A stretch of DNA of 24,643 nt from a virus. The notes beneath the pieces were generated by a model. That model did not search any database and was not told where the DNA came from. It was given only the letters and a program-made list of their open reading frames with translations. The first letter of the stretch is position 1. Each line of letters begins with the position of its first letter. The stretch covers positions 1 through 24,643 of IMG/VR virus record IMGVR_UViG_3300021092_000200. One strand, 5' to 3'. This document shows, one piece after another, positions 3,666-23,976 of this stretch. The position numbers and the translations under genes were made by a program.

Positions 3666-5405
3666 TTATATTCTTGGTTTTTGCTCTGCGTTATTCTGTG
3701 CTTCTCTATCTCGTTGATACTTTAAGGCTGCTTCCCGTTGTCTTCGTTGAGTTTCCTGTGCGTCGGGTAATGGTTGGTTAACTGGATTCTCTCTACCATA
3801 TTGCTCTGGAGTTTTAGGTGTAGGAGCTGCAGCAGGAGGAGCTGCAGCAGGAGCTGCAGCAGCAGGAGCTGCAGCAGCAGGAGCTGCAGCAGCAGGAGCT
3901 GCAGCAGCAGGAGCTGCAACAGGAGCTGCAGAGGGAGCTTGTTTAGATCTTTCAAGGAATCCTCTTTCGACATCATCTGCTGTGACGGGTTCGCCAGTCT
4001 CAAATCCTCTGATTATCTCGGGAGGTGTGTTGGGGTTATACCCAGAGTGCCACGCCTTAGGGCTTGCAGCAGGAGCTGCAGCAGGAGCTGCAGCAGGAGC
4101 TGCAGCAGGAGCTGCAGCAGGAGCTGCAGCAGGAGCTGCAGCAGGAGCTGCAGCAGGAGCTGCAGCAGGAGCTGCAGCAGGAGCTGCAGCAGGAGCTACA
4201 GCAGGAGCTACAGCAGGAGCTACAGCAGGAGCCGTAACATCGCTACCGCTGCCACTGGGAATTCCTTTTGGAGTTTGTGGTGACGCCTTCGTAGTAGGAG
4301 AGGAAGAAGTTGTAGAGGGAGCTTTATAACCAGGATCTCCTGGTTGTTTTAATAATAATGATCCCGTCCCATCTCCCTTTGCTGTAGGAGCGGAAGGAGT
4401 TACAGATCCCGTTTGACTCGTCGAAGCAGAAGAAGCTGCAGACTTAGCCTTTTTAGCTTCTAATTCAGCAGTCTTAGCTTCTAATTCTCGCTCTCTCTGT
4501 CTAATCTGCGCGTCCTGGTACCACATTTGATCTAAATCTGGTCTCTGTTGTTTGACCTTTGCTATATCGGCTTTATTTTGGGCTATCACTTTATCTTGAA
4601 GTTCAAAGGGAGTCATAGTCACATCGTCATAGTAGTCGCCGATTGCTTTTTCTGCATTATTGATTGTATCATTGATTGTATCTATACCCTTGCCGGCTGC
4701 GCCACCGACCACGTCGCCGAGTGCGCCGCCGATGCCGCCGCCAAATACCTGGCCCGGCACGCCGAAGACGGGGCCCAAAACCGTGCCTGCGAAGGTGCCG
4801 ATCCCACCGCCGATGGCCTTTCCAGTTTTTTCGTATACACCAGTCGCTGCCCTACCCGCAGCACTGCCTACAGCCTCTCCAGCTTTCTGGGCAGATGTAA
4901 ATCTTCTAGAAAATTCATCAGGGTCTTGGTCGATCGAGAACGCGCCGGTCTTCACGTGGTCAGCGATGGTGAAAGAAGGTTCATCAAGATCACCGCCGCC
5001 GCTGCCACTGGGAACTCCTTTAAGTCCAGCGATCCCAGTGCCCATTGTTTTAAATTGGTCGATCGAGAACGGGCCGGTCTTCACGTGGTCAGCGACGGTG
5101 AAAGTAGAGTTTTGTGATTGAGTCTCCCTCCCAATGACACTTTGATTTCTCCGCTCATTTAATTGTTTAAACATATGTGACGCAACAGAACTGTTTGAAT
5201 CCTCATATAAAGAATTTGATTTAGACTTGTGCTCACCCCAATAATAATTTAAAGGACTATTTTGCTGCTGTTGTAACTGTTGTTCCTTGACTTGTTCTTC
5301 TATTGACTTTGTAGGAAGTTTCCAGTTATTAATTTTAGCCAGTTTGGTAATAGATTCAGAAATGGATTTAACTAATGAATCTTGTATTTTTTTGGGGGTT
5401 GACAT
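3666..5405 (-). CDS. Putative virion cargo protein with glycine-zipper segment and Ala-Pro repeats
   Basis: Unrecognised 579-residue protein with a modular layout. Residues 1-20 resemble the N-terminal tag of its neighbours, with a possible cleavage site ISE at 15-17. A Q-rich stretch lies at 41-48. Two near-identical 17-residue units, FTVADHVKTGPFSIDQ and FTIADHVKTGAFSIDQ, sit at about 101-117 and 144-160. Residues 184-240 are a glycine-zipper hydrophobic region (GGGIGTFAG, GGGIGGALG). A charged helical, coiled-coil-like part follows at 265-325. The C-terminal half holds two Ala-Pro arrays and ends in a charged tail. The start ATG has an AAGGA ribosome site and an imperfect promoter-like TATAAAATA at 5419-5427. 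Base composition is uneven: the zipper is very GC-rich. It may be a packaged, membrane-active protein; no function is proven. Confidence 0.75.
   Translation of the reverse strand: MSTPKKIQDSLVKSISESITKLAKINNWKLPTKSIEEQVKEQQLQQQQNSPLNYYWGEHKSKSNSLYEDSNSSVASHMFKQLNERRNQSVIGRETQSQNSTFTVADHVKTGPFSIDQFKTMGTGIAGLKGVPSGSGGGDLDEPSFTIADHVKTGAFSIDQDPDEFSRRFTSAQKAGEAVGSAAGRAATGVYEKTGKAIGGGIGTFAGTVLGPVFGVPGQVFGGGIGGALGDVVGGAAGKGIDTINDTINNAEKAIGDYYDDVTMTPFELQDKVIAQNKADIAKVKQQRPDLDQMWYQDAQIRQRERELEAKTAELEAKKAKSAASSASTSQTGSVTPSAPTAKGDGTGSLLLKQPGDPGYKAPSTTSSSPTTKASPQTPKGIPSGSGSDVTAPAVAPAVAPAVAPAAAPAAAPAAAPAAAPAAAPAAAPAAAPAAAPAAAPAAAPAASPKAWHSGYNPNTPPEIIRGFETGEPVTADDVERGFLERSKQAPSAAPVAAPAAAAPAAAAPAAAAPAAAAPAAAPPAAAPTPKTPEQYGRENPVNQPLPDAQETQRRQREAALKYQRDREAQNNAEQKPRI
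3823..3940. repeat. Ala-Pro coding minisatellite, array 1
   Basis: Tandem 12- and 15-base units built from gcagcaggagct, coding on the minus strand for A-A-A-P blocks. Each unit contains the palindrome gctgcagc. It is open in several frames and so creates spurious ORFs on the plus strand. Confidence 0.9.
4066..4230. repeat. Ala-Pro coding minisatellite, array 2
   Basis: About 13 near-perfect copies of a 12-base unit gcagcaggagct. The minus strand encodes A-P-A-V three times, then about ten A-P-A-A units. Copies differ only at the end read first on the minus strand (gctaca instead of gctgca), a pattern expected from recent slippage or unequal recombination. Confidence 0.95.
4691..4820. other. 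GC-rich island inside an AT-rich genome
   Basis: Counting by hand gives 95 G+C in these 130 bases (73%), against AT-rich sequence on both sides. It encodes the glycine-zipper part of the 579-residue protein on the minus strand. Glycine and alanine codons raise GC, but the third positions are also G/C, unlike the GGA/GCA/GCT-rich codons of the same protein's Ala-Pro arrays. Confidence 0.85.
4926..4975. repeat. 50-base direct repeat, copy 1
   Basis: Matches 5055-5104 with two mismatches, offset 129 bases (43 codons). Encodes the second ADHVKTG.FSIDQ peptide of the 579-residue protein. It is also richer in GC than the sequence around it. Confidence 0.95.
5055..5104. repeat. 50-base direct repeat, copy 2
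   Basis: Partner of 4926-4975 with two mismatches. Encodes the first ADHVKTG.FSIDQ peptide. The nucleotide identity exceeds what peptide conservation requires, so the duplication looks recent. Confidence 0.95.
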
Positions 5406-5436: not shown

Positions 5437-5745
5437 TTAACAATTCCATTTTCTTAAAGATTTATTAATTCTGGAATCTGGATCGTTTGCAGTTTTTGCA
5501 CTGGTTAGTTTTCGTTTCATGCCGGTCATTCTTCGACAGAACGACTTTCTTCGTTTATCGTCTTTAGAACCTTTTTTAATTTTTGATGGATCTTTAGTGA
5601 CTGCCGTTTGAAGTTTAGATCCAGGATTTGCCCTTCGATAAGAAGCTACTCCTTTTCGATTAAGGCCTCCTTCGGGATCTTTTCCTTCTTTTCTGGTCCA
5701 GGCTGGACTTTTTACTTCTGTTAAATATTGTCGAAATGAACGCAT
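5437..5745 (-). CDS. Small basic tagged virion protein, DUF6321-like
   Basis: 102 residues. The first ten, MRSFRQYLTE, match the N-terminal tag of other genes here and offer an LTE cleavage site at 8-10. The rest is a conserved basic domain: WTRKEGKDPEGGLNRKG, then YRRANPGSKL, then KRRKSFCRRMTGMKRKL, ending in LRKWNC. From memory this is the DUF6321 family, common in marine T4-like phages (not checked). About one third of its residues are Lys or Arg, so it probably binds nucleic acid; packed in the capsid it could bind phage DNA. The late promoter at 5751-5758 ends five bases before the ATG, so the late transcript would be nearly or fully leaderless. Confidence 0.85.
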   Translation of the reverse strand: MRSFRQYLTEVKSPAWTRKEGKDPEGGLNRKGVASYRRANPGSKLQTAVTKDPSKIKKGSKDDKRRKSFCRRMTGMKRKLTSAKTANDPDSRINKSLRKWNC

Positions 5746-6440: not shown

Positions 6441-6878
6441 TTATGATTTATTTGCAGCGGCTGCACTACCAAAGTAAAACCCTACAATTGAAACTAATAT
6501 TTGTCTGTTTTCTACTGTAAACAAATATCCGTTAACGGTTTGAAACAAGGTTGTGGTAGAAGACGGAATTAATCCAAACAACCATTCGGGTGATTTGTAT
6601 TCTACTTCAACTATTGTTGGTATATTGAAAAACGGAAGAATAAACGGAGCCAGTATTGTACCAAAAAGAATTGCCAGTACAATTGTTTGACGAACTCCTT
6701 TTCCTACATCAACAGGAACTCGTTTTACTGCTGCGTCTTTTGCAGATTCTGTAGCATTATGGGCAGTCAAAAGTCGTTGAAAGTTTTCTTGATCGTTCTT
6801 TCTTTTTTCTGCCATGTGACGGAATATAAATCCTGTCACTCCACCTCCTATTAATGTTATGAGTTCCGTTGGAATCAT
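6441..6878 (-). CDS. Putative three-transmembrane holin
   Basis: 145 residues with hydrophobic segments at about 5-19 (ELITLIGGGVTGFIF), 65-87 (TIVLAILFGTILAPFILPFF) and 127-140 (ILVSIVGFYFGSAAAA), with a charged amphipathic region at 20-60. The layout and the C-terminal GFYFG motif resemble holins of the 3TM (gene-transfer-release) family. A holin makes the inner-membrane hole that starts lysis. The ATG overlaps the stop of the 754-residue gene by four bases, and the small gene and spanin candidate follow. No endolysin is evident in the window. The family call is from pattern, not alignment. Confidence 0.6.
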   Translation of the reverse strand: MIPTELITLIGGGVTGFIFRHMAEKRKNDQENFQRLLTAHNATESAKDAAVKRVPVDVGKGVRQTIVLAILFGTILAPFILPFFNIPTIVEVEYKSPEWLFGLIPSSTTTLFQTVNGYLFTVENRQILVSIVGFYFGSAAAANKS

Positions 6879-9139
6879 TTTCTTCTTTTTCTCCTTAGTA
6901 TAGGTGGACGCCGTCTTACTACAACATTGCCGTCTGAGGCATCTTGTCCTATACCTGCGATGCCTCCTGCACCTACACTATTTATAACAGGAGAAGCTTG
7001 TACTGCCTCTCCTTCTTCCCTCAAAAAACCCATTATATTGAATAAAATAGACTCTTTTAAAGAACCTTGCATGAGACGCTTGGCGTATCTATTTTTTTGT
7101 CTAGGGGACATCCCACGCGGCATCATCCCGTGTGCTGCTTTTGTGTCTCCGCTCTGCAGTGCGTTTCGCAAGGCAGTACCAGATACATTACTCAATTCTG
7201 TGCCTGATCCTCTAGTTTCTCCTACTTGATGAAATTGCAAATCTAGATCAACTAATTCTCCAGATTGTGTTTTCCATTTTCCTCCGTTTTTAGTCATGTA
7301 TCTAGTTAAACTGTCTGCAAGATTATTTGGTCCTTTTGTAGTTATTCGATCCGATCCTCCAATAAAATGAATTTTTGTATGTCCTTGACCAATTAATTCG
7401 TCAATATGATGAAAAGGATTTACAGATTCGGGAGAAGTCACAGAATAGTTTATATCTCCAAGATGAGGTTCTGCTGTACTTTGTAGAATTCGACTTTTTT
7501 CTTCATGAGATAGGATATGTCCAGAAGAAGTTGTTGGTCCGTGTACAAAATGAGAGGCTCCAAATTTTCGAGCCAATTCTATACCCTGTCTAGTCATTTC
7601 ACCGTGTGCATCTGTTATAGTTCCAAATTTTCCTGAATACAACACAACACCAGTTGATTTGAGTTTTTTATCGAATTTATCTTTTTGTTCAAAATTTGCT
7701 TTGCTAAAACTTCTTGGAACAAATTTAATCTTTTTTCCATCTTTTTCAGATACTATTCCTTCGTGTTGATGGCCTTCTGCTGGAGTTAATTCTGTAGCAT
7801 GTTTAGTCACGTGATCAACAATAATATCTCTTGCTTGATCTATACTGTTATGAGCATTGAATAATTGTTCAAGTGTTTCCGTGTCTCGAGATAAAATATC
7901 ATAGTGTGCCTGATGTCTTAATTTATCTTTTGGTTTTGCCTTTGCTATTTGATGATCAGTAAATTCTTTGAAGCCTTTTAACGTTCGTTCATGTGTTCCT
8001 CTTTGTACTGCATTGGAAAATTTAACAAGATAAGCAGAACGAGATGCTAATTTATTGGTAAGATCCCGATGTTTGGATATATTTCTCATCAATCTTTGAA
8101 CTTTTTGATCTGAAAGTATTTTAGACGCATTAGCAATATGACCTTTTAATGTTTCTATAGATTGTGGATCAAGTTGTGGAAGATTGGTTAATGCTAGACG
8201 AGGGAAATGTTGTGTATCTGTGTTTAAATGACTCATATCAGGATTTACTAAACTATTTCCGGTTTCAGAATCATATCTGCGGTTTACTGCTATTTGACTT
8301 TCTGCAGATGTAGGATTATTGTATCGGATTAAATTTCCTTTTCCTCGTAAAATAACATCTGCGGTAAAATATTCATTAGGTCCTACTCTAGGATGAGAAG
8401 CTGCTGCAAGAGCTGCTGTTATAGGTTCAATCCAATGCGGCGCATTATTCCGTTTTGCCCAATCAACAAGTTCTTCTTTAGAATAAAAACGATGTTCTCC
8501 TTTGGCATATTCTGCAAAAGGAACACCATTACTCTTACCAGCGTTTACACTCATCACTCCGTCTGCTTTTAAAGATAAATTATGATCATCTGATTGATTG
8601 CCACTTAAAGTATTCAGAATGGAATTTAAATGACCCACTGCAGTTTCGTGACCTCCAGTATAAATTACTTCTCCGACATGAGGTAAACGTGTAGACTTAT
8701 TAGTACTTGCGACTTGTTCAATCAAAAAAGTATTTTCTATTTCTTCTACTTCTTCAATCACAAATCCTTTATCGTATGTTAGGGCAAGTAGTTGTTCTAT
8801 TATAAATTCTCCGTCTGCGCCGTATTTTTCTGCCTCTTCTGCCAAAAGAGGAATTGCAGTTGGAATATATCGTAGTTTAACTTTAATCGACGGATCTATA
8901 ATCTTGTCAAACAGTTTCTTTAAATTAAAAATCATTATATCAAAATTAGTAAGGGCCTTGTTTTCTTGTCTGGTTAATTTATTAGGATCCTTTAAATAAT
9001 TTCCCTTTGCATCGATTATTCCTAATCGATAGGCCATTGTATTTTCAAACGGTGTAGTTATTGCCTTAACATATTTCCACAGAGTAAAACTGTTTATTAT
9101 TCCTCTAAGACCGGCACTAGTAATTTTCTTTTTAATCAT
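6875..9139 (-). CDS. Two-domain protein: ligase-like covalent nucleotidyltransferase plus NMNAT-like adenylyltransferase
   Basis: 754 residues. An N-terminal helical region (about 1-150) leads into a domain with the motifs of covalent nucleotidyltransferases (DNA/RNA ligases, capping enzymes): motif I K191-A-D-G, a motif III-like EYFTADVI at 256-263, motif IV E460-G-I-V, and motif V-like K470-I-K472-F-V. A helical insert separates motifs III and IV. Residues 497-665 look like an NMNAT-type nucleotidyltransferase: GKFGTITDAH at 503-512 in place of the GxFxPxHxGH nucleotide loop, GGSDR at 594-598, and the closing VSGTALR at 652-658. The C-terminal tail has an NSVGAGGIAGIG motif, which I associate with T4-like virion proteins, and a Lys/Arg-rich end. 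The gene overlaps the holin gene by four bases and the upstream gene by eight. Substrates are unknown; NAD or RNA/DNA end chemistry are candidates. Confidence 0.75.
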   Translation of the reverse strand: MIKKKITSAGLRGIINSFTLWKYVKAITTPFENTMAYRLGIIDAKGNYLKDPNKLTRQENKALTNFDIMIFNLKKLFDKIIDPSIKVKLRYIPTAIPLLAEEAEKYGADGEFIIEQLLALTYDKGFVIEEVEEIENTFLIEQVASTNKSTRLPHVGEVIYTGGHETAVGHLNSILNTLSGNQSDDHNLSLKADGVMSVNAGKSNGVPFAEYAKGEHRFYSKEELVDWAKRNNAPHWIEPITAALAAASHPRVGPNEYFTADVILRGKGNLIRYNNPTSAESQIAVNRRYDSETGNSLVNPDMSHLNTDTQHFPRLALTNLPQLDPQSIETLKGHIANASKILSDQKVQRLMRNISKHRDLTNKLASRSAYLVKFSNAVQRGTHERTLKGFKEFTDHQIAKAKPKDKLRHQAHYDILSRDTETLEQLFNAHNSIDQARDIIVDHVTKHATELTPAEGHQHEGIVSEKDGKKIKFVPRSFSKANFEQKDKFDKKLKSTGVVLYSGKFGTITDAHGEMTRQGIELARKFGASHFVHGPTTSSGHILSHEEKSRILQSTAEPHLGDINYSVTSPESVNPFHHIDELIGQGHTKIHFIGGSDRITTKGPNNLADSLTRYMTKNGGKWKTQSGELVDLDLQFHQVGETRGSGTELSNVSGTALRNALQSGDTKAAHGMMPRGMSPRQKNRYAKRLMQGSLKESILFNIMGFLREEGEAVQASPVINSVGAGGIAGIGQDASDGNVVVRRRPPILRRKRRK

Positions 9140-9521
9140 GGAGTGCCTTTAAAACTTTATCTATTCTGTGGTCTGTAGGTATTTCTGAAACGTTTACTTC
9201 TGGTATCTGTTCTGGTATATAATCCAAATATTCCAGAAAAGATTTTAAATATGTATGTAAATCACTTGGAATTTTATAAAATAACATTCTGGTGCATACC
9301 TCTGCGCCAAATATATTTTGCAATATAATTATATGATTTAACAGAAGTCTTTCTTTTAGATCTCCTGTTTTTTTAAATCGAATCAGTAATCTTTTAATAT
9401 ATTTAACTCGAATCAAATCATCATATAGATCTTCTATTTCAGAAAAAGATGAGTTTTTAATAAGATATATCAGAAAATTCTTTTCGTTTAGTTTAGCTAA
9501 TCTTCTGATATGATAATCCAT
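9132..9521 (-). CDS. Conserved T4-like phage protein of unknown function
   Basis: 129 residues, mostly helical. Leu/Ile-rich helices carry YIKRLLIRFKKTGDLKER and LNHIIILQNIFGAEVCTRML, a pattern I have seen in marine T4-like phages without an assigned role. The end (EIPTDHRIDKVLKAL) is acidic, then helical. There is no signal, membrane segment or tag. No clear ribosome site precedes the ATG at 9521; 17 bases separate it from the upstream gene, so it is probably read from the same late transcript. Its last eight bases overlap the start of the 754-residue gene. Confidence 0.7.
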   Translation of the reverse strand: MDYHIRRLAKLNEKNFLIYLIKNSSFSEIEDLYDDLIRVKYIKRLLIRFKKTGDLKERLLLNHIIILQNIFGAEVCTRMLFYKIPSDLHTYLKSFLEYLDYIPEQIPEVNVSEIPTDHRIDKVLKALHD

Positions 9522-9538
9522 GATTTAAACACAACCAT

Positions 9539-10441
9539 TTACTCTTCTGATCTACTATTTTTTTCAAAATTAAATAAAAGTCTTTTTGCAGCTCGCATTT
9601 TATCATTATTATCTAATTTTATTCCTTTTCTGTCATTAGATAATGTTCTTGTTGCAGATTCTACTGCGTAAACAAATCGTTTAAGTGCAGATTCTGTTGT
9701 ATATTTTCCTTTTTTCTTTGATATTTTTAAAGAATCATAAATAGGACCCAGTATTCTTTTATTAGCATCTGCGTCTCTTAGCAAAAACATTTCAACTACA
9801 CGTGCTGGATCTTTTGGTTCTTTTTTAGATTTATTTTTTTCTTTTTCTTCTTTTTCTTCAAATAAATCTGTTTCTTCTGGTAAAGATTCTGGTGTTCCGT
9901 ATAATGTATCAGGTTGAGTTTCTTTGCCTGTTTGATTTGCTTCGGGACCTACTTCTGTGGGACAATCAGTACAAACATGAGAAATTAATTTTGGTTCTGC
10001 AAAAACAAATCCACTAGGATTTTGCATTAAATTGAATCTTAGGATAAGATCAGGATAATCTTCTCCTCTATCGAAAGGTTCTTTTGTTAGATCTGTGGTT
10101 GGAGTAACTCCAAATTTTTCTCCAAATACTCTAACCAATAAAGTATTTACTCCCATTTTTAATTCTTTTGTATTGTCAAAAACAATAACAAGTCCAACCC
10201 CAGCAGCTAATTTTGCACTTAATTCTTTTAATGCCTCTTTGGGATTTAAATACGATCCAGAAAAGAATGATTGAATATACGAATTTAATCTTGCCAATTG
10301 TTCTGGATTTTTAAATGCATAAAATGCTCCTTGCGAACTCAGTGCAGATCTTGGGGCAGGATCTGAAAAACCATTAAAAACTGTTCCTCCAAATGATTCA
10401 CTTTCTGAAATATATTTTTTTAACTGCTTAAAAGTCTTCAT
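9539..10441 (-). CDS. Tagged virion-type protein of unknown function
   Basis: 300 residues. Begins MKTFKQLKKYISES, like the tag of its neighbours, with a possible ISE cleavage site at 11-13. Residues about 40-170 look like a compact domain (SYIQSFFSGSYLNPKEALKEL, later GLVIVFDN) with hydrophobic strands. A Cys pair (CTDC) lies near 157-160, followed by a long acidic Glu/Lys low-complexity stretch (about 190-210) and a helical basic C-terminus (ALKRFVYAVESATRTL). AAGGAGA is a good ribosome site, and the ATG overlaps the upstream stop by four bases, so the genes are coupled. No fold or activity is recognised. Confidence 0.7.
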   Translation of the reverse strand: MKTFKQLKKYISESESFGGTVFNGFSDPAPRSALSSQGAFYAFKNPEQLARLNSYIQSFFSGSYLNPKEALKELSAKLAAGVGLVIVFDNTKELKMGVNTLLVRVFGEKFGVTPTTDLTKEPFDRGEDYPDLILRFNLMQNPSGFVFAEPKLISHVCTDCPTEVGPEANQTGKETQPDTLYGTPESLPEETDLFEEKEEKEKNKSKKEPKDPARVVEMFLLRDADANKRILGPIYDSLKISKKKGKYTTESALKRFVYAVESATRTLSNDRKGIKLDNNDKMRAAKRLLFNFEKNSRSEE

Positions 10442-11331
10442 TTATCTCCTTTTCTATTCTTAAGTATAATGTATGTTGCCAATCTGTATTGGGCGTTTTT
10501 TTTTGTATCGTTTCCTTTTATCGGTTCTGCTTTTACTTTTTTAGCAAGACGATCTCTGGATCCTATTTCTGTTTTTGACATTGTTCCTTTATTTTTACGA
10601 TTAACTATTTCTTCGTTTATTTTTACATTATCAGCATATATAGTTTTCTGTGATCCTCTTTGTCTCCATCCTGTTATTGTACCATTCGATGAAATTGGTC
10701 CCATATCTTGATTTTTTTGATTTTCATCACCACTAGAGGTGGTTCTAGGTTGATAATCTGGAATAGTATATCTCTTTGTTGTTTGTGTGTCTCCAGTGCG
10801 AATACCTACTGCTCTGTGGATACGTTTTGCCACATCTATGGGATTGTACCAGTCATATTGGTTATCGGCGGGAAGCAAATCAATCAGTTTAGGTATCTGT
10901 GCTCCTGGGACTAACCACCACCAATTTGACTTAAAGCTTGGAAACAGTGGTTTACTGTAATGCGATTTTGCTGATTTTTGTGTAATTACAACATTTCCTT
11001 CATCGTCATAGCTATACCCTCTTCTCGTCCGCGGAGCTCCTGTTGATTGATTTACAGACTTTCCTTTAAAGTTAGACATCCAGGATCGATCATCAATAAT
11101 ACCGCTGATACTGAGGTTTTTTTCATTATCGTTCTGTGTTTTTTGTCCAGGGACGGGCATGTTTAAATTAGGGTTTTGGGATTGAGTCCCTGCCCCAATA
11201 ACACCTTGTGTCTTTGAATATTCGAATAAAACTTTGATTTTATTATTCAATGATGTTTCTATTAATTTTTTAGAATTTAAATAATTTTTATTTAAAATTT
11301 CAATTAATATTTGTTTGTTTGGTGTGTTCAT
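10438..11331 (-). CDS. Tagged mosaic protein A of the repeat-flanked cluster
   Basis: 297 residues, not recognised. The first 14 residues, MNTPNKQILIEILN, match those of the next gene upstream (MNTPNKQALIEILK). Candidate cleavage sites are LIE at 9-11 and 23-25. Residues 42-53, QGVIGAGTQSQN, recall QSVIGRETQSQN in the 579-residue protein, also at DNA level. The body is Ser/Thr/Gly/Asn-rich and probably disordered in large part, with one aromatic block (SNWWWLVPGAQIPKLIDLLP) near 135-155, and the C-terminus is basic. It lacks the C-terminal tail shared by proteins B and C. It may be packaged in the capsid. Confidence 0.65.
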   Translation of the reverse strand: MNTPNKQILIEILNKNYLNSKKLIETSLNNKIKVLFEYSKTQGVIGAGTQSQNPNLNMPVPGQKTQNDNEKNLSISGIIDDRSWMSNFKGKSVNQSTGAPRTRRGYSYDDEGNVVITQKSAKSHYSKPLFPSFKSNWWWLVPGAQIPKLIDLLPADNQYDWYNPIDVAKRIHRAVGIRTGDTQTTKRYTIPDYQPRTTSSGDENQKNQDMGPISSNGTITGWRQRGSQKTIYADNVKINEEIVNRKNKGTMSKTEIGSRDRLAKKVKAEPIKGNDTKKNAQYRLATYIILKNRKGDK

Positions 11332-11466
11332 AGATTGTATTTCTTATATTTAGTTATTCTGATAATATATATTTTGAATAGTGTTTATCATCGAGTTTTT
11401 CTATTAATTTATTTTGATAATAACCAACATCTCGATGTTCCCAAAATGCATCAATTGCTATGTTTC
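11291..11466. repeat. Long direct repeat, copy 1
   Basis: About 176 bases, roughly 90% identical to 12252-12427 (offset 961). It covers the start of protein A, the spacer 11332-11353 and the 3' end of gene B. A block of nearly 50 bases, from tttggtgtgttcat to tattctgataa, is identical. Confidence 0.95.
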
Positions 11467-12292
11467 CTGCTATATTTGCCGCCGTTCCCACGCCAGGAAT
11501 AAATCCTATCGCACCCAGAGCTCCTCTGGCTAAAGCTTTTCCCCATTTTCCTTTACTAAGATCATCATAAGCCTGCAATCCTGTTGCTACAGCTCCAGCG
11601 AATGGTATTGCCTTTGCGGCATGTTTACCTATCCCTTTTGCTACATTTATACCAGTACTCGCAGCAGTTTTAGCAGCAGTTTTTATTGTTGCTGGATTAT
11701 TAATGGCAGTGCGAGCGGCAGTGCCAACAGCAGTGCCAGCTTTAGTGGCTATATCCTTAGCAGCGGATAATGTATTTGTAGCTGCAATTCGAGTAGCCTG
11801 TCCTGCACGGTTAGCAACAGAAGATTGTGGGTTAATGGCGGCAATCCCACTTGCTATATTTGTTCCTAATTTCGAAGCTTTCGAAGCTAATTTTGAAACT
11901 AGTCCAGATGACCGAGCAGCATCATATGCGCCCTTAGCTAATGCCACAGTACCCAGTTTTGTTGTATATGAATCTCCTCCAACAGGATTTAACGACGAAT
12001 CTGGTGCGGATTTCATTCCTTGACTTGAATTACTAGATGTTTCGTAGCTATAATCTTCCCGACCACCACTACCACGGCTTCCGATTATATCATCATTCTG
12101 TAAATCACTACTTTCTCCATTTTCATTGCGGCCGGTATAGTTGTTTACATTGCGTGTTGCTGCACCGGATTGATGACTGTAAAGATTTGTGCTGGGTGTG
12201 CGTGAGTTTCTTACTCGGTCTTCGTTTAGAACTTCTAATGTTATTTTATTTTTTAAAATTTCAATTAATGCTTGTTTGTTTGGTGTGTTCAT
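11354..12292 (-). CDS. Tagged mosaic protein B, Ala/Gly-rich hydrophobic
   Basis: 312 residues. The tag is MNTPNKQALIEILK with sites LIE at 9-11 and TLE at 18-20. A polar Asn/Ser/Gly linker follows. Residues about 110-215 are Ala/Lys/Thr helical repeats (AAKTAAST style), then hydrophobic glycine-rich stretches (GKWGKALARGALGAIGFIPG, then GTAANIAGNIAIDAF) that could enter membranes. The last 30 residues, WEHRDVGYYQNKLIEKLDDK.YSKY.LSE, are nearly identical to those of protein C. The tag matches A and the tail matches C, so the gene is a mosaic. It is bounded exactly by the two copies of the long repeat. Function unknown; capsid cargo is the working idea. Confidence 0.7.
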   Translation of the reverse strand: MNTPNKQALIEILKNKITLEVLNEDRVRNSRTPSTNLYSHQSGAATRNVNNYTGRNENGESSDLQNDDIIGSRGSGGREDYSYETSSNSSQGMKSAPDSSLNPVGGDSYTTKLGTVALAKGAYDAARSSGLVSKLASKASKLGTNIASGIAAINPQSSVANRAGQATRIAATNTLSAAKDIATKAGTAVGTAARTAINNPATIKTAAKTAASTGINVAKGIGKHAAKAIPFAGAVATGLQAYDDLSKGKWGKALARGALGAIGFIPGVGTAANIAGNIAIDAFWEHRDVGYYQNKLIEKLDDKHYSKYILSE

Positions 12293-12427
12293 AGATTGTA
12301 TTTCTTATATTTAGTTATTCTGATAACATATATTTTGAATACCGTTTATCATCAAGTCTTTCTATTAATTTGTTTTGATAATAACCAACATCTCGATGTT
12401 CCCAAAGTGTGTCAATTAGTGTATTTC
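12252..12427. repeat. Long direct repeat, copy 2
   Basis: Partner of 11291-11466. It covers the start of protein B, the spacer 12293-12314 and the 3' end of gene C. Recombination between the copies would delete or duplicate gene B as a 961-base unit and leave intact reading frames. Confidence 0.95.
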
Positions 12428-13442
12428 CTATTAAATTTAATCCTGTGCCTGCGGCCACAGCTACACCTGGTGCAATAAAATTTCCGAGAGACTGCACTCC
12501 TAAACCCGCAGCACCAACACCTAATCTGGCTAAAGCTCTACCCCATTTTCCGTTATATAAATCAGCTGAGGCAAGTCCTAAATCTGCTGCAGCGCCGACA
12601 AATGGAACAGCGCGCAAAGCGGCTTTAGCTCCAATTTTCCCTGCTGTTTTAGCAGCAGTCCACGCTAGTGGTTTCGATACTTCTTTTCCTGCAAGGGGTA
12701 TTTTAAGGTGTTCTGCAGCTCCAGCAACCTTGAGTGCATCCGATGCATTGGCTGCTCGTAAAAGATCTGTAGCTTGATCTGCGGTTCTTGCTACACCACC
12801 AAGTTTACCCGTATTAAGTGCTTTTTCTAATCCCGTCACTGCACTGGTTCCGCTAGCCCGAGCAAGAGGACGACCCAATCGCAAGGCTTCTTGTTCTGCT
12901 TTTAGAGCTTTTTCTGCATTTAACCAATTAGCCACATCATCTCCAACATTGAGTCCTGAAGCTCTTGTTGCAATTTGTTGGTGTGACGGAACAGATCTTC
13001 CTATAACACCTTGAGCAAGTCGTCGTGCGCGATCAACCTTAGCTTTAGTAGCTAGTGAGCCCTTGGCAACACCATAACCACCGGCGCCAGCTAAAATATA
13101 TGGCGTTGCTGGTGTATCAGATTCACGCTTTCTATTGTAAGCGAAATCATCTGGTCCAAAATCTTCTGGTTCGTTTCCGGTCGTGGGTCGACCACGACCA
13201 TAACCTCTACCATTATCTCCGCGTCTATTTTCACCGGTAAAAGTATTTACACTATGTATCACTATATCGGGAAACTGTCTAGTTCGTACAATGCCTCTCG
13301 GTGGAGTTGGCATATTAGGCATATCTTCCCCATATCCGTAAAGATCTATTGCGCCAGATTTTTCATCATCTGACATTTCTGTTTGGTCTTGACGTCGTTC
13401 TAATATTGTTTTACTTTTTAAAATTTCTTTAAAATTTTTCAT
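12315..13442 (-). CDS. Tagged mosaic protein C, Ala/Gly-rich hydrophobic
   Basis: 375 residues. Begins MKNFKEILKSKTILERR, a tag of the MKTF/MRSF class with a site ILE at 13-15. A polar linker contains VNTFTGENRRGDNGRG, similar to VNNYTGRNENGES in B. The middle is Ala/Leu helical; residues about 285-345 hold GKWGRALARLGVGAAG and a glycine-rich hydrophobic stretch. The last 30 residues are nearly identical to B. It has a late promoter at 13459-13466 and a GGGAGAAAG ribosome site between the promoter and the ATG, so it has an ordinary leader, unlike several other tagged genes. Probably a paralogue of B with a different N-terminus. Confidence 0.7.
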   Translation of the reverse strand: MKNFKEILKSKTILERRQDQTEMSDDEKSGAIDLYGYGEDMPNMPTPPRGIVRTRQFPDIVIHSVNTFTGENRRGDNGRGYGRGRPTTGNEPEDFGPDDFAYNRKRESDTPATPYILAGAGGYGVAKGSLATKAKVDRARRLAQGVIGRSVPSHQQIATRASGLNVGDDVANWLNAEKALKAEQEALRLGRPLARASGTSAVTGLEKALNTGKLGGVARTADQATDLLRAANASDALKVAGAAEHLKIPLAGKEVSKPLAWTAAKTAGKIGAKAALRAVPFVGAAADLGLASADLYNGKWGRALARLGVGAAGLGVQSLGNFIAPGVAVAAGTGLNLIGNTLIDTLWEHRDVGYYQNKLIERLDDKRYSKYMLSE

Positions 13443-14093: not shown

Positions 14094-17000
14094 TTAATCA
14101 TTATCTGCGCGGTTCGTACTACGACTACGAACTCTCAAATTTCCAGGAGAATTGTCTCGAGGATCACCGTTTTTGTGATCTACGTCTTTCCCGTCTCCTT
14201 TGCGAACAAGACCTTTTCTTTCTGCCCATCTACGGGCCATATTTCGTTTGCTTCTATTTTTTCGTTGATCAGGTTTACTGTGGTAGTTGTCGTATTCACC
14301 ACGATAATTTCTTTTTTTATTTTCTTCAAGAAATGATTTTGCTAATACAGAATACATTTCAGATACAACTAAAGGAACTTGATGATATTTTCCATTAACG
14401 TAAATTGAATTAAATCTACCGTCTTCCTGATCTGGGATATACTTTGTTATGTCTATCGGATCCATTCGAATAGTATCAATCGAAACGTCAAATATTTGCA
14501 TTAGTTTAAATATATCAGTTCCAGCGTATTCAAATTGAATCTTATCTATTCGTTCCTGATACTCCATCATAGTTTTAATATAGTTTTCTCTTTCTATGTT
14601 CAGTTTATCTGGGTTGTCCGCATTAAACTCTAAAAGCATTCGTAGTAGAGAATTATGAGAAAATCTTACAACTAAATTTTCGTTTGCATTTTCTGCCTGA
14701 GCGGCAAGAGCTAGCCAATTAGCTCTTAAAATAGGAGAAGCTTCAAGTATTAATTTTTTATCTTCTTCGGAAAGACCAGGATTCTGTTCAATGAAGGCCT
14801 GACTTTTTTTACGATGTAGCATATCCTGTCTGTATTCATCTACTTGATTTGGTTTAATGTCTTCCTCGTCTATTCTCTTTTTCAATTCTTCTTCATCAGC
14901 ATCCTCCCAATTTATTTCTACGTCTTCAACTTTTTTATAAAAGTCGGACACTTTTTCATAAAATTCTGTTTTTGTTTTAGCTATCAGTTTATTTAGTTCT
15001 CTCTCAGACAAATTAGGATTCGCTGTCACTGCATTAGAAACTGCCTCAGCTTCTAGCTGAGCATAACGTTCTTTGTTTTGACTTTCTAATGCTGTATTAA
15101 CGGAGGCACTTTTCAATCGTAAATATATTCGAACGTCTGGTGCTACTTTTTCGACTAATTCATCATTTATTTCTGTGAATTCGACTTGCGTTCCATCAGG
15201 TGAAATAGTTAAAAGATGGGTTGCAATTCCTCCTGCTGATGTAGGATCGTTTGGATCAAATTTATGCTCTCCTGTCCATGAATTTCTAATAATAATTTTT
15301 TTCACTTCAGGATGGTTTACTATTTTATCAAGCATTGACTTCAATTCATTTACATGCTCGGTAAATCTTTGAGAAGAAATAATTCCGGAGATTTCTGCAC
15401 TTTGTTCTAACGTTCCTCGTGTTATTATTCTGTTTAACTCTTTTGTTTTTTCCAGAAACGTTCTTATTATTAATTTCGTTTCTTCTGGAACTGCTTCAGA
15501 TTCTAATGCTTTTTGAAATAATACGGTTGCATCCCCAGACTCACTTAAAGCACCAGACATTGTCTGTGCCTCTCCTGTTTTTTGACTAACTTTAACTATT
15601 CCAGACTGCATTTCTGCCAATTTTTGGATATTCTCGGAAGTCTTTTTTTTCTTCTTTAGTAAGTCTCCATACTCTTTTTGCCATTTTTGTAATGCTTTAA
15701 TTATTTGTTCTGGAGTCATTTTGCCATCAGGATTTATTTTTTCCATTGGAATAAATAATAAATCTGGTTTTCCTGTTCCGTCTACTCCGTCTGCTGTTGT
15801 TTTATATCGCTGAGTTCCTACAGCAACAGAATAATAACTTCCTAGAGGTCTATCGCTATTGTTAATTTTCTTTTGATTTATTCTGCTAGCTGCCTCAAAT
15901 GCTATTCCAAATGCAGCATCCTTATCGAGTGCTATTTCTATTTCCTTCTCGGCCAATCCGTATTTTTTTAATTCATTGGTTATATAAGTTAGAGCTTGTT
16001 GTTGTTCTAGAGTTACCTCTGCTCCTACTTTGCCTGATCTGTATGCCAGTTGTGCATCAGGTAAGCTTGTTTGAAATTTTTCTAATTGCTCTGGATATTC
16101 TATGACTGACATATTGGTAGCTGTTACATTAAACCTTTCGGTGGCCCCGGCCGGCGCCCGTTCACCTGTTGGAGGAGGAGGAGAAGGAGGAGCTACTGCA
16201 CCTGCACCCGCACCTGGATCTGGTCCTGATTTGTCTGTCATGTTATTTTCCCTTTTGGTTTCCTTACACTTAACACCTGCTTTTATAGACGTGCCTGTCT
16301 GTACGAAATTGTTTTCTTCTTCATTGAGTTTGCATAATCTTTGTGCTTCTTGTGGAGATTTTAATTTTTTTACTTCTATATGATATCCTTTTTTAACACT
16401 GTCTACATCTACTAGTTTAGTTTTACCTTTTACATCTTTGACTATTCGTGCTCGGTTTATAAATCTAGCAGGATCTTCTTCATTTCTTCGATCAAATCTT
16501 CGTTTTCGTTCTCTATTGGACTCTCGTTCTTCTTGTTCAGTTTGTTTTTCTATAAGATATTTATCAAAATAATTTGCATTTTCTCTCATAGCAAGTCTTC
16601 TCAATCTTCGAGACTCTTGTGCAGGCATTTTTTGAATTCGTTGTTTTATCATTCGATTCAACATAGGTTTTCGTTTTGATATGATTGAATCTATTCTGGA
16701 TCGTGTTGTCAAACTTAAACTAGACCAAGGTTTTCCTCCAGTCAATCTCTTTCTCATTTCATTTTTAACTTGATTATATGCTCTTTTGGCCAATTGAGTT
16801 TTATTTTTTCTTAATCTTTCTCTGATGGCTCTTTTTCTTGCACGAATTCTAGAAGTTCGTTTTGCAGCTCTTCTCATTTTAATTCTAGATGCACTAGATA
16901 CTACTTCAAATAAAGATTCTGGAGAATTTTTGCAAAAATCAAAAAATTCTGATAAAGAAAACCAAGAAGAATCTTGCGTTTCTTCACATTCTGGTAAATT

Positions 17001-17141
17001 TTCTCTGATTTCTTCGTATAATGTTTGGAAATCTGATATTTTTTCTAAATTTAAACCCTCTAATAAAGAAAAAACACAAAAGGCAGCAAAATTTCCAGAT
17101 TCTGCTGCCTCTACTAGTAAATTAGATTCGCTAATTTCCAT
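14094..17141 (-). CDS. Large basic virion-type protein with C-terminal HNH motif
   Basis: 1015 residues. The N-terminus has a textbook cleavage pattern LLVE|AAESG (E11). Residues about 85-230 are strongly basic and helical (MRRAAKRTSRIRARKRAIRE), a pattern I associate with marine T4-like structural proteins. A Pro/Gly/Ala linker covers about 305-335. The long middle is helical and charged, with a segment near NSWTGEHKFDPND followed by hydrophobic strands, recalling phage virion proteins of unknown role. The last 31 residues hold an HNH-type motif: D988-H989, N997, N1001-L, N1010 (VDHKNGDPRDNSPGNLRV). An internal ATG at codon 301 (16241) follows an AAGGGA site and may be a second start or a fusion seam. 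Late promoter at 17149-17156, seven bases before the ATG. Confidence 0.75.
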   Translation of the reverse strand: MEISESNLLVEAAESGNFAAFCVFSLLEGLNLEKISDFQTLYEEIRENLPECEETQDSSWFSLSEFFDFCKNSPESLFEVVSSASRIKMRRAAKRTSRIRARKRAIRERLRKNKTQLAKRAYNQVKNEMRKRLTGGKPWSSLSLTTRSRIDSIISKRKPMLNRMIKQRIQKMPAQESRRLRRLAMRENANYFDKYLIEKQTEQEERESNRERKRRFDRRNEEDPARFINRARIVKDVKGKTKLVDVDSVKKGYHIEVKKLKSPQEAQRLCKLNEEENNFVQTGTSIKAGVKCKETKRENNMTDKSGPDPGAGAGAVAPPSPPPPTGERAPAGATERFNVTATNMSVIEYPEQLEKFQTSLPDAQLAYRSGKVGAEVTLEQQQALTYITNELKKYGLAEKEIEIALDKDAAFGIAFEAASRINQKKINNSDRPLGSYYSVAVGTQRYKTTADGVDGTGKPDLLFIPMEKINPDGKMTPEQIIKALQKWQKEYGDLLKKKKKTSENIQKLAEMQSGIVKVSQKTGEAQTMSGALSESGDATVLFQKALESEAVPEETKLIIRTFLEKTKELNRIITRGTLEQSAEISGIISSQRFTEHVNELKSMLDKIVNHPEVKKIIIRNSWTGEHKFDPNDPTSAGGIATHLLTISPDGTQVEFTEINDELVEKVAPDVRIYLRLKSASVNTALESQNKERYAQLEAEAVSNAVTANPNLSERELNKLIAKTKTEFYEKVSDFYKKVEDVEINWEDADEEELKKRIDEEDIKPNQVDEYRQDMLHRKKSQAFIEQNPGLSEEDKKLILEASPILRANWLALAAQAENANENLVVRFSHNSLLRMLLEFNADNPDKLNIERENYIKTMMEYQERIDKIQFEYAGTDIFKLMQIFDVSIDTIRMDPIDITKYIPDQEDGRFNSIYVNGKYHQVPLVVSEMYSVLAKSFLEENKKRNYRGEYDNYHSKPDQRKNRSKRNMARRWAERKGLVRKGDGKDVDHKNGDPRDNSPGNLRVRSRSTNRADND

Positions 17142-22086: not shown

Positions 22087-23976
22087 TTATCGGTGATCGG
22101 CCATGTACGCTGAAATTTGCTCCGGTGGGGCCTTACTATATATCGACAAACGAGACGCCTTTTGCCAAGCAAGTTGTCTTACACTTTCATACGGAGATTT
22201 AAGGGCATAATTAATCCGTTCAAATGGGTTCCAACCCGATATGAAGTTGCTATGATTTACTGCTGCTGTTTGTATAGATTCATGATCAGATCGAAGGGCA
22301 GCACTAATGTGTCCTTCACCATTTCCGAAATTGCGATGCTCTACTGCTGCTCTTGCTATGGATTCATCACTAGATCCAAGGGCAGCTCTAATGTGTTCTG
22401 GATCATTTCCGAAATTGCGATGCTCTACTGCTGCTCTTGCTATGGATTCATGACGAGATCGAAGGGCAGCACTAATGTGTTCTGGATCATTTCCGAAATT
22501 GCGATGCTCTACTGCTGCTGTTTGTATAGATTCATGATCAGATCGAAGGGCAACACTAATGTGTCCTTCACCATTTCCGAAATTGCGATGCTCTACTGCT
22601 GCTCTTGCTATGGATTCATGATCAGATTCAAGGGCAGCACTAATGTGTTCTGGATGATTTCCGAAATTGCGATGCTCTACTGCTGCTCTTGCTATGGATT
22701 CATGAGGAGATCGAAGGGCATGAGAAATGTGATTTGGATCATTTCCGAAATTGGGACGATTTACTGCTGCGCTTGCTATGGATTCATGAGGAGATCTAAG
22801 GGCATAAGAAATGTGATCATCCCAATCTCGGCGAGGATTCCTTCTGAAGAACTTCCGCCATATCGCCTGATCGCGGTTGAGACGCTCTACTGCTGCTGTT
22901 TGTATAGATTCATGAGGAGATCGCAGGGCACTAGTAATGTGATCACGCCGATTTCCGAACTTGGGATGCTGTGCTGCTTTTAATGCTACAGATTCATGAG
23001 GAGATGTAAGGGCAATATTAAAGTATTCTTCATCTTCACCATTTCCGAAATTGCGATGCTCTACTGCTGCTCTTGCTATGGATTCATCACTAGATCCAAG
23101 GGCAGCCCTAATGTGTTCTGGATCATTTCCGAAACTTGGATCCTCTACCGCCGATTGTAACTGGTCAGAATTAACATACTGTTCATTTCTTCCAGCAAGA
23201 ATATGGCTTACCTTTTTTTCTCCAGATAATAGTTTAATTGTTTCCCCAAAAACCTGTTTACCTTCTTCACCATCAACTACTTTATTACCGGGGTCAACAA
23301 TTCCCCTGTCCGTATATCCATGAGATAAAACAGGAGTACCTTCTTGATTTGTATAGAAAAATATTCCAGAACCTCGAGAATACCCTTTTAAATGGTTAGG
23401 ACCGCTGTCGTTTTCTTTGGGAAGAACACACCAAGTGTATCCGCCTTGACAAGTTTTTCTTAATGCTCCGCTTATTCTTTTATATTCTTCAAAATCTTTA
23501 ACATCAGAATGATGAACATGATGTACCTGTAGTGTTCCGTGTTGTGGATGTTCTATTTCGCCAATATGGTATTTTGCGAGTTCATCCATTCCTCTAGCCT
23601 GTACTGTACTCTTTATTTGGAGTTCAGGAATATCACTAAACAATTTACTAACAGAATCGTGAGTATGATCTTTTAAAGAACCTTTAACAAGATTTTGTCG
23701 TTTACCTCTTCTCCATTTTCCTAAAGTCATTTGTATTGTAGGATCGTCTTCGTCGGGCTTATATGTTCCGTCTAACAATTGACGAGTCAAAAAATGATGT
23801 TCGTCGACAGTTTGACCAAAAGATCTGGCGTAAGCAATAAGACCTGAAGCCCGTTCTGGATTATTTTTAACCAAAGGATGGTCATTATGAACTTTTAACC
23901 ATTTATTGATATATTCTTGTTTTTTATCTTCAAGTAAAAGAGTATATTCGATTAAATATTGTCGGAAAGAGATCAT
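22087..23976 (-). CDS. Tagged solenoid protein with about eleven 28-residue repeats
   Basis: 629 residues. The tag MISFRQYLIEYTLLLEDK has E10 and E16 sites (LIE, LLE). Residues about 20-260 form a globular part with ALRKTCQGGYTWCVLP and GSGIFFYTNQEGTPVLSHGY, which recalls phage domains with a conserved T-x-W-C segment. Residues 282-608 are about eleven repeats of the form FGNDPEHISAALRSP + HESIARAAVEHRN, 28 residues each, like leucine-rich-variant or HEAT-like helical solenoids (compare D-P-x-x-x-V-R-x-A-V-A). One unit is longer, with a basic WRKFFRRNPRRDW insert. Units are almost identical at DNA level, so copy number may vary. The late promoter at 23982-23989 ends five bases before the ATG. 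Possibly a packaged host-binding protein. Confidence 0.75.
   Translation of the reverse strand: MISFRQYLIEYTLLLEDKKQEYINKWLKVHNDHPLVKNNPERASGLIAYARSFGQTVDEHHFLTRQLLDGTYKPDEDDPTIQMTLGKWRRGKRQNLVKGSLKDHTHDSVSKLFSDIPELQIKSTVQARGMDELAKYHIGEIEHPQHGTLQVHHVHHSDVKDFEEYKRISGALRKTCQGGYTWCVLPKENDSGPNHLKGYSRGSGIFFYTNQEGTPVLSHGYTDRGIVDPGNKVVDGEEGKQVFGETIKLLSGEKKVSHILAGRNEQYVNSDQLQSAVEDPSFGNDPEHIRAALGSSDESIARAAVEHRNFGNGEDEEYFNIALTSPHESVALKAAQHPKFGNRRDHITSALRSPHESIQTAAVERLNRDQAIWRKFFRRNPRRDWDDHISYALRSPHESIASAAVNRPNFGNDPNHISHALRSPHESIARAAVEHRNFGNHPEHISAALESDHESIARAAVEHRNFGNGEGHISVALRSDHESIQTAAVEHRNFGNDPEHISAALRSRHESIARAAVEHRNFGNDPEHIRAALGSSDESIARAAVEHRNFGNGEGHISAALRSDHESIQTAAVNHSNFISGWNPFERINYALKSPYESVRQLAWQKASRLSIYSKAPPEQISAYMADHR
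22152..23133. repeat. Tandem 84-base coding repeats
   Basis: About eleven units encoding the solenoid of the 629-residue protein. The blocks 22321-22413 and 23041-23133 differ at one base in 93 although 720 bases apart, a sign of recent duplication or gene conversion. Confidence 0.95.

Follow-up and report, generated by a model that had tools for sequence, protein, structure and literature searches.

The window analyzed here is a 24,643-nucleotide stretch of viral DNA (IMG/VR virus record IMGVR_UViG_3300021092_000200, positions 1–24,643), and its 754-residue open reading frame (ORF) at 6875–9139 on the minus strand is, by profile matches and structure prediction, a three-part fusion of a PHROG 18642/2086 domain, a DUF6267 domain, and a HIGH-superfamily nucleotidyltransferase. 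Our analysis supports DUF6267, which is annotated as a family of unassigned function and is labeled a ligase in no library searched, as an unrecognized family of covalent nucleotidyltransferases whose predicted fold is closest to that of RNA ligases. Based on this fold and on sequence motifs, the protein is probably an end-joining enzyme, RNA-ligase-like though divergent, to which a HIGH-family partner is coupled.

Architecture of the fusion protein

The ATG of the ORF, at position 9139, lies within the final bases of the preceding gene, and its stop codon shares bases with the start codon of the following ORF (ATGA); the plus strand across 6875–9139 is rich in stops. A first-pass annotation of the window had given this span correctly and described it as a fusion of a ligase-like and an NMNAT-like enzyme, missing the minus strand, the third domain at the N-terminus (res. 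14–139), and the existing DUF6267 family. The pairing of a ligase-like with an NMNAT/HIGH-type domain is borne out by the predicted fold, motif conservation, the family membership of both halves, and recurrent adjacency or fusion elsewhere. This architecture recurs, at ~61–80% identity, in four full-length or nearly full-length relatives and one partial relative from viral metagenomes, and the fusion is therefore not an assembly accident. The protein is divided as follows:

6875–9139, minus strand: whole fusion ORF, 754 residues; same architecture in relatives L001, L002, L004, and L096
8720–9139, minus strand: N-terminal domain, res. 1–140 (PHROG 18642/2086)
7664–8704, minus strand: DUF6267, predicted RNA-ligase-like nucleotidyltransferase domain, res. 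146–492 (PF19782, E 5.6e-10; AlphaFold2; Foldseek against PDB; BFVD)
7064–7651, minus strand: predicted HIGH-superfamily nucleotidyltransferase domain, res. ~497–692 (PHROG 395, E 9e-4; PPAT/NadD-like fold)
6878–7033, minus strand: disordered basic tail, res. 703–754 (predicted local distance difference test, pLDDT, <50)

The DUF6267 domain has a predicted RNA-ligase-like fold

Residues 320–485 match Pfam DUF6267 (PF19782) at 39.6 bits (E 5.6e-10; gathering cut-off 27 bits), and homology to the family reaches residues 146–492 by alignment. An alignment of 67 relatives, A5, with identities as low as 17–25%, provides the conservation counts and the tree given below, as well as an AlphaFold2 model of residues 146–492 with a pLDDT of 90.5 and a predicted template-modelling score of 0.88. 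We worked with family profiles and intermediate relatives because the isolated window domains are too divergent for tblastn, which returned no DUF6267 match from phage records and only weak matches to PA5oct-type cytidyltransferases.

In a Foldseek search of the PDB with this model, every one of the top 25 matches is either an RNA ligase (Naegleria, archaeal, or T4 Rnl1) or a protein of Aquifex that carries the annotation ATP-dependent DNA ligase; the best E is 4e-3 at probability 1.00, and T4 Rnl2 stands at rank 38. Among the predicted viral structures in BFVD, members of the family come first, followed by named matches that are mostly phage and giant-virus RNA ligases. The predicted structure relates the region to the nucleotidyltransferase family, in line with the first-pass proposal of a nucleotidyltransferase/OB protein (OB, oligonucleotide/oligosaccharide-binding). 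The OB part of that proposal does not hold: a helical insert lies between motifs IIIa and IV instead, and the models have no OB fold after motif V, only one helix followed by a linker and the HIGH domain. The motif-bearing elements of the domain are:

8558–8569, minus strand: motif I, KADG, res. 191–194; K, D, and G in 67/67; K191 is the predicted AMP-accepting lysine
8501–8503, minus strand: K213, candidate motif Ia lysine; 67/67
8351–8374, minus strand: motif III-like EYFTADVI, res. 256–263, with D261; D in 67/67, most others having QGD
8273–8296, minus strand: motif IIIa-like QIAVNRRY, res. 282–289; N286 in the window, His in 66/67
7799–8167, minus strand: helical bundle between motifs IIIa and IV, res. 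325–447, from the secondary structure of the models
7751–7762, minus strand: motif IV, EGIV, res. 460–463; E, G, and V in 67/67
7712–7732, minus strand: motif V, KIKFVPR, res. 470–476; K472 in 67/67, V474 (in place of the second lysine of KxK) in 65/67, R476 in 66/67

All motifs that had been picked out from the sequence are present in the order proposed, namely KADG (191–194), EYFTADVI, EGIV (460–463), and KIKFV in the first enzyme and GKFGTITDAH (503–512), GGSDR (594–598), and VSGTALR (652–658) in the second. Motifs I, III, IIIa, IV, and V follow one another as in ligases, at K191, D261, H/N286, E460-G461, and K472. None of the 67 relatives differs at K191, D193, G194, K213, D261, E460, G461, V463, K472, F478, or N482, and since the motif residues persist down to 17–25% identity, the motifs are not a product of chance. 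In RLIG1, an RNA ligase that belongs to this superfamily, motif I has Lys, III Glu, IIIa His (His195), IV Glu, and V Lys (PMC11494293).

Several observations count against a ligase assignment. Global TM scores to PDB ligases are low (0.2–0.27), and no PDB match of the DUF6267 domain falls below E 1e-3. Motif III has Asp for the usual Glu, the second lysine of motif V is Val, and Asn replaces the motif IIIa His in the window copy (N286); activity may therefore be reduced or lost. A profile search of the PDB with DUF6267 gave only helical artefacts and no ligase, and the Pfam ligases are not reached either, Rnl1 (PF09511) and Rnl2 (PF09414) not being among the 25 families listed for members of A5. 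An hhalign alignment of the DUF6267 profile to T4 Rnl1 falls short of significance, its best-aligned stretch nonetheless coinciding exactly with motifs IV–V. As sequence profiles by themselves leave the families unlinked, the assignment rests on fold and motifs. An hhalign match to T4 DNA ligase (E 0.021; the Alt and UvsW controls are worse) was discarded as it falls outside the ligase motifs.

Alternatively, the window copy could have lost catalysis and serve as a structural protein inside the head, keeping the fold without the chemistry, a reading that we regard as very improbable. Such a loss would fit N286 at a position that is His in 66/67 relatives, the disappearance of W192 from the window clade, a HIGH-domain loop that reads TDAH rather than TxGH, and the disordered basic tail, but K191, D193, G194, K213, D261, E460, and K472 are all retained, and the four closest relatives keep His at position 286.

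The HIGH-superfamily domain and the flanking regions

The C-terminal part of the protein matches PHROG 395, ‘cytidyltransferase’ (E 9e-4), and it is modeled with confidence in the full-length prediction, in which the N-terminus and tail have low confidence. Foldseek pairs the domain with PPAT (3otw, E 2.6e-4, TMt 0.68) and also with NadD, FAD synthetase, and HldC. Three loops of the superfamily can be placed:

7604–7633, minus strand: GKFGTITDAH, res. 503–512, TxxH form of the HxGH loop
7346–7360, minus strand: GGSDR, res. 594–598, aligned with GSDR/GGDR in free-standing cytidyltransferases
7166–7186, minus strand: VSGTALR, res. 652–658, equivalent of the ISSTxxR loop by alignment with cytidyltransferases

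Motif matches in the fetched loci, duplicates counted, comprise 129 TxGH, 10 TxAH, and 7 HxGH forms of the first loop. The window loop, TDAH, is a G-to-A variant of TxGH, which is also the PPAT form. PPAT, NadD, FADS, and HldC match the predicted domain alike, NMNAT activity being one possibility among several. Membership in a NadR/NadM-type NAD salvage pathway was rejected, as the associated kinase, Nudix, and NadV parts are absent from the fusion.

At the other end, residues 14–139 match PHROG 18642 (E 1.4e-20) and PHROG 2086 (E 5.5e-11), a domain of T4-like phages without assigned function. The PHROG 2086 domain is a free-standing protein, AGE60475, in phage HTVC008M, and relatives of the N-terminal domain occur in KVP40, phiM12, and other T4-like phages. 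The tail (res. 703–754) has no match in the phage collection searched, and the earlier suggestion that it resembles virion proteins is weak. A short look-alike, DAPANASGSAVAGTGDDSSTVVVKKK against VINSVGAGGIAGIGQDASDGNVVVRRR in the window protein, occurs in Melnitz (locus L005), in the gene that immediately follows the PHROG 2086 gene. Prohead-protease sites at LxE residues 139–141 (conserved, between the N-terminal and ligase domains) and 706–708 were given no weight, [LIF]xE occurring nine times in the protein.

Gene neighborhood and recurrent fusion

DUF6267 is found in 471 phage records, mostly of ocean cyanophages. A scan of genome contigs gave ten loci only; almost all of them lie on probably viral contigs from marine metagenome assemblies or single cells, and the scan gave no cellular homologue with informative context. 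In Kyanoviridae, the parts of the fusion are separate neighbors: DUF6267, often followed by an overlapping cytidyltransferase gene, sits in a cluster between the gp41 helicase and gp61 primase, with PHROG 407 in the same interval; in HTVC008M, the PHROG 2086 gene lies behind this cluster. PHROG 407 (DUF7207) is common to the cluster and to the window, where it directly precedes the fusion:

9132–9521, minus strand: DUF7207/PHROG 407 gene (DUF7207, E 9.8e-31), overlapping the fusion start

The window protein probably originated by fusion of PHROG 2086, DUF6267, and ‘cytidyltransferase’ genes that lie separately in one Kyanoviridae cluster. A match to the HTVC008M cytidyltransferase domain is present in 53 of 80 DUF6267 loci, many of the remaining ones being cut short, and PHROG 455 spans both DUF6267 and the cytidyltransferase. 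Fusions of the two occur in the window clade, in L128/L147 with S-PM2, and in L138. As these lineages sit apart in the A5 tree, whose support around L138 is weak, the alignment suggests about three separate fusion events. The 591-residue ‘cytidyltransferase-like’ protein of S-PM2, among the first BFVD matches, is evidently itself a DUF6267–cytidyltransferase fusion. The older S-PM2 record NC_006820 (L203/L204) has both halves with a frame change at ~103530 that breaks the fusion; it is intact (591 residues) in another database entry.

A polynucleotide-kinase-like protein is encoded two genes downstream of DUF6267 in HTVC008M, and directly upstream lies AGE60460, which has a nuclease-like signature and a homologue in the window:

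14094–17141, minus strand: 1015-residue protein, middle homologous to HTVC008M AGE60460 (BLASTP E 9e-10), C-terminal HNH

The signature, PK(T/S/C)D(F/I)xF...S(M/L/H)K.G...Q..SG, recurs in different proteins, namely those encoded immediately before DUF6267 in HTVC008M, Melnitz, S-SM1, S-CAM9, and DLP6 and the product of window 14094–17141. It resembles a PD-(D/E)XK nuclease core and has no Pfam match. A nuclease–ligase–nucleotidyltransferase trio may form a conserved unit.

The recurrent pairing with a HIGH-superfamily nucleotidyltransferase could also mean that the ligase fold is repurposed for end capping, protein AMPylation, or activation of the small molecule handled by the HIGH domain (e.g., an NAD+/CoA-like one). 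The deviant motifs III and V, the absent OB domain, and the long unique insert would suit such a role, which we nevertheless consider improbable: no known small-molecule enzyme with such a pairing was found, the closest structures are polynucleotide ligases, and RNA ligases without an OB domain exist (T4 Rnl1 and RLIG1).

Ligase genes in DUF6267-bearing phages

Fifteen DUF6267-bearing genomes or long contigs were surveyed with Pfam profiles: HTVC008M, Melnitz, Syn19, S-H9-1, ACG-2014e, S-CAM9, S-SZBM1, S-CREM2, S-RSM4, P-SSM2, S-PM2, S-SM1, two long IMG/VR contigs, and DLP6. Rnl1 and Rnl2 were found in none of the 15 and ATP-dependent DNA ligase (PF01068) in DLP6 only, leaving 14 without it; NAD-dependent ligase (PF01653) is absent from the ten tested. 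For comparison, T4, KVP40, and phiM12 carry a DNA ligase, Rnl1, and Rnl2 without DUF6267, pf16 has a DNA ligase and Rnl2, and PA5oct has a DNA ligase. A 2010 review reported no g30 homologues in cyanomyoviruses, weighing distant homologues that had escaped identification against absence of the gene and judging absence more probable (PMC2984593). DUF6267 is the only ligase-like gene found in each cyanophage-type genome tested and may be the ligase that those phages were thought to lack; a ligase-fold identity would make the question of a distant cyanomyovirus ligase directly testable.

One version of this idea is that DUF6267 is the missing replicative or repair DNA ligase of cyanophages, acting in place of T4 gp30 at nicks and Okazaki fragments. 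Consistent with it are the location of the gene between helicase and primase, the lack of PF01068 in all 14 Kyanoviridae-type genomes and of PF01653 in the 10 of those tested, and the room that the review leaves for distant g30 homologues. We find it unlikely, however: the fold matches are mostly to RNA rather than DNA ligases, the OB domain is absent, and a ligase of the host can stand in, which the review describes for T4 and E. coli (PMC2984593). Stenotrophomonas phage DLP6 has DUF6267 alongside its own DNA ligase and neither Rnl1 nor Rnl2, which tips the balance to RNA.

Capsid targeting and virion proteins

The internal proteins of T4 carry N-terminal targeting sequences; targeting itself depends on residues 4 and 7, and cleavage on residues 8 and 10 (PMC9026906). 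We expressed this as a strict rule, M..[FY]..[FY][LIV].E (aromatic at 4 and 7, aliphatic at 8, Glu at 10), which is matched by 25 of 79 DUF6267 proteins (31 of 79 with a looser rule), the 79 not being independent sequences. Internal methionines, taken as a control, match in 0 of 3141 cases by the strict and 5 of 3141 by the loose rule. A cytidyltransferase has been detected in virions of S-SM1, S-CREM2, S-SCSM1, and S-SZBM1 (PMC3037559, PMC10665884, PMC9602691, PMC9146016), with the authors’ caution that carry-over from the lysate is possible. Those of S-SM1 (T4-GC190, that is SSM1_190; MKKFSAFLNE) and S-CREM2 (ORF154; MKNFSSFLTE) are perfect targeting matches, and SSZBM1_140 starts with MRFRQFIIE, one residue shorter than the pattern. 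S-CREM2 ORF153 had been taken for DUF6267, wrongly: the S-CREM2 DUF6267 gene is at 58914–59762.

The cytidyltransferase partner is thus likely packaged in the head and injected, and from their N-termini it is plausible that many DUF6267 proteins are as well. By the same rule, the N-terminus of the window fusion has no capsid-targeting sequence, nor does the S-SZBM1 DUF6267 protein SSZBM1_141; head packaging and injection of the window fusion are unproven.

Two other minus-strand products of the window have strict targeting-type starts. The 629-residue protein at 22087–23976 begins MISFRQYLIE/Y, contains ~7 copies of an 84-base (28-residue) repeat (HESIARAAVEHRNFGN...), and has no PHROG match; it is possibly a head-packaged repeat protein. 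The DUF6321 protein at 5437–5745 begins MRSFRQYLTE/V. In L001–L004, the DUF6321 domain carries an N-terminal extension of 100–120 residues, and in PHROGs it recurs as the C-terminal part of a wide variety of phage proteins.

Proposed mechanism

Everything beyond the fold assignment we infer. As an RNA-ligase-like end-joining enzyme, the protein would act in three steps: K191 would attack ATP to form lysyl-AMP; the AMP would pass to a 5′-phosphate end, with RNA (a cleaved tRNA, for example) the most likely substrate and nicked DNA a less likely one; and attack by a 3′-OH would seal the end. In substrate binding, the place of an OB or C-terminal domain would probably be taken by the helical bundle that separates motifs IIIa and IV. 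The HIGH domain, of PPAT/NMNAT fold, would transfer a nucleotide onto some small phosphorylated molecule, possibly so as to restore NAD+, and recurrent adjacency and fusion suggest that the two domains act together. The logic would be that of T4 Rnl1–PseT repair of cleaved tRNAs; RNA and NAD+ are both known targets of bacterial self-attack during infection, the first by cleavage and the second by depletion (PMC9503650, PMC7824862).

This scheme is weakened by the makeup of the census, which one phage family dominates, making it suggestive and its positives not independent. Moreover, not every locus has a linked partner or a kinase, homologues of the kinase occurring in 10 of 80 loci, and SSZBM1_141 is not named in the main text or virion protein table of the S-SZBM1 paper. 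A broader proposal, which we put forward tentatively and hold at rather less than even chances, is that the ligase long missing from the marine T4-like phages (Kyanoviridae) is DUF6267. It would be a polynucleotide ligase of new architecture that depends on ATP, is regularly paired with a HIGH-family nucleotidyltransferase, and in many of these phages is packaged in the head and injected for end repair from the first minutes of infection, the set being welded into one polypeptide in the window phage. A ligase-fold identity for DUF6267 would in itself provide a mechanism-level hypothesis for the virion-borne ‘cytidyltransferase’ repeatedly found by proteomics, and it would suggest a new source of nucleic-acid-joining enzymes.

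Other features of the window

The fusion had been placed just before the lysis genes, which the data do not sustain: the next ORF, at 6441–6878, has only a sub-threshold holin match (E 0.098). A ribonucleotide reductase (PHROG 367, E 3e-184) is encoded at 382–2316 on the plus strand, opposite to the head-type genes. Tandem repeats of 12 and 15 bases at 4065–4232 and 3822–3931 give rise to a long Ala-Pro/Ala stretch in the ORF at 3666–5405. Three tandem paralogue-like proteins are encoded on the minus strand at 10438–11331, 11354–12292, and 12315–13442; the first two share the N-terminus MNTPNKQxLIEIL and the last two the C-terminus HRDVGYYQNKLIE.LDDK.YSKY.LSE.

Comparison with known systems

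DUF6267 resembles T4 Rnl1 (RnlA), Naegleria RNA ligase, archaeal Rnl3, and RLIG1 in its predicted fold, in KxDG, and in the order of motifs III, IIIa, IV, and V. In contrast to those enzymes, it has no profile-detectable homology to them, an Asp in motif III, a single motif V lysine, a helical insert, and neither an OB nor an Rnl1-type C-terminal domain. The T4 Rnl1–PseT tRNA repair system is similar in that a ligase-like gene and a polynucleotide-kinase-like gene lie close together in HTVC008M, whereas the window protein has no Rnl1 and no PNKP fusion. Phage NAD+ salvage by NadM, NadR, and NadV shares a HIGH-family adenylyltransferase with the window protein, which lacks NadV, Nudix, and the NadR kinase domain.

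The cyanophage cytidyltransferase found in virions (T4-GC190/PHROG 395) shares the HIGH fold and the GR/KF...T/HxGH, GSDR, and SASKMR/SGTALR loops; the window domain differs in being fused behind the ligase-like part, in its TDAH loop, and in having no capsid-targeting sequence of its own. Within DUF6267, most relatives have EGYV or EGFV as motif IV and the window copy EGIV. By score, window residues 146–492 are a member of Pfam DUF6267. PHROG 455, whose function is likewise unassigned, covers DUF6267 together with the cytidyltransferase, and neither of the two libraries gives a ligase fold or activity; compared with these families, the window copy is divergent (~20% identity) and adds a PHROG 2086 domain and a tail.

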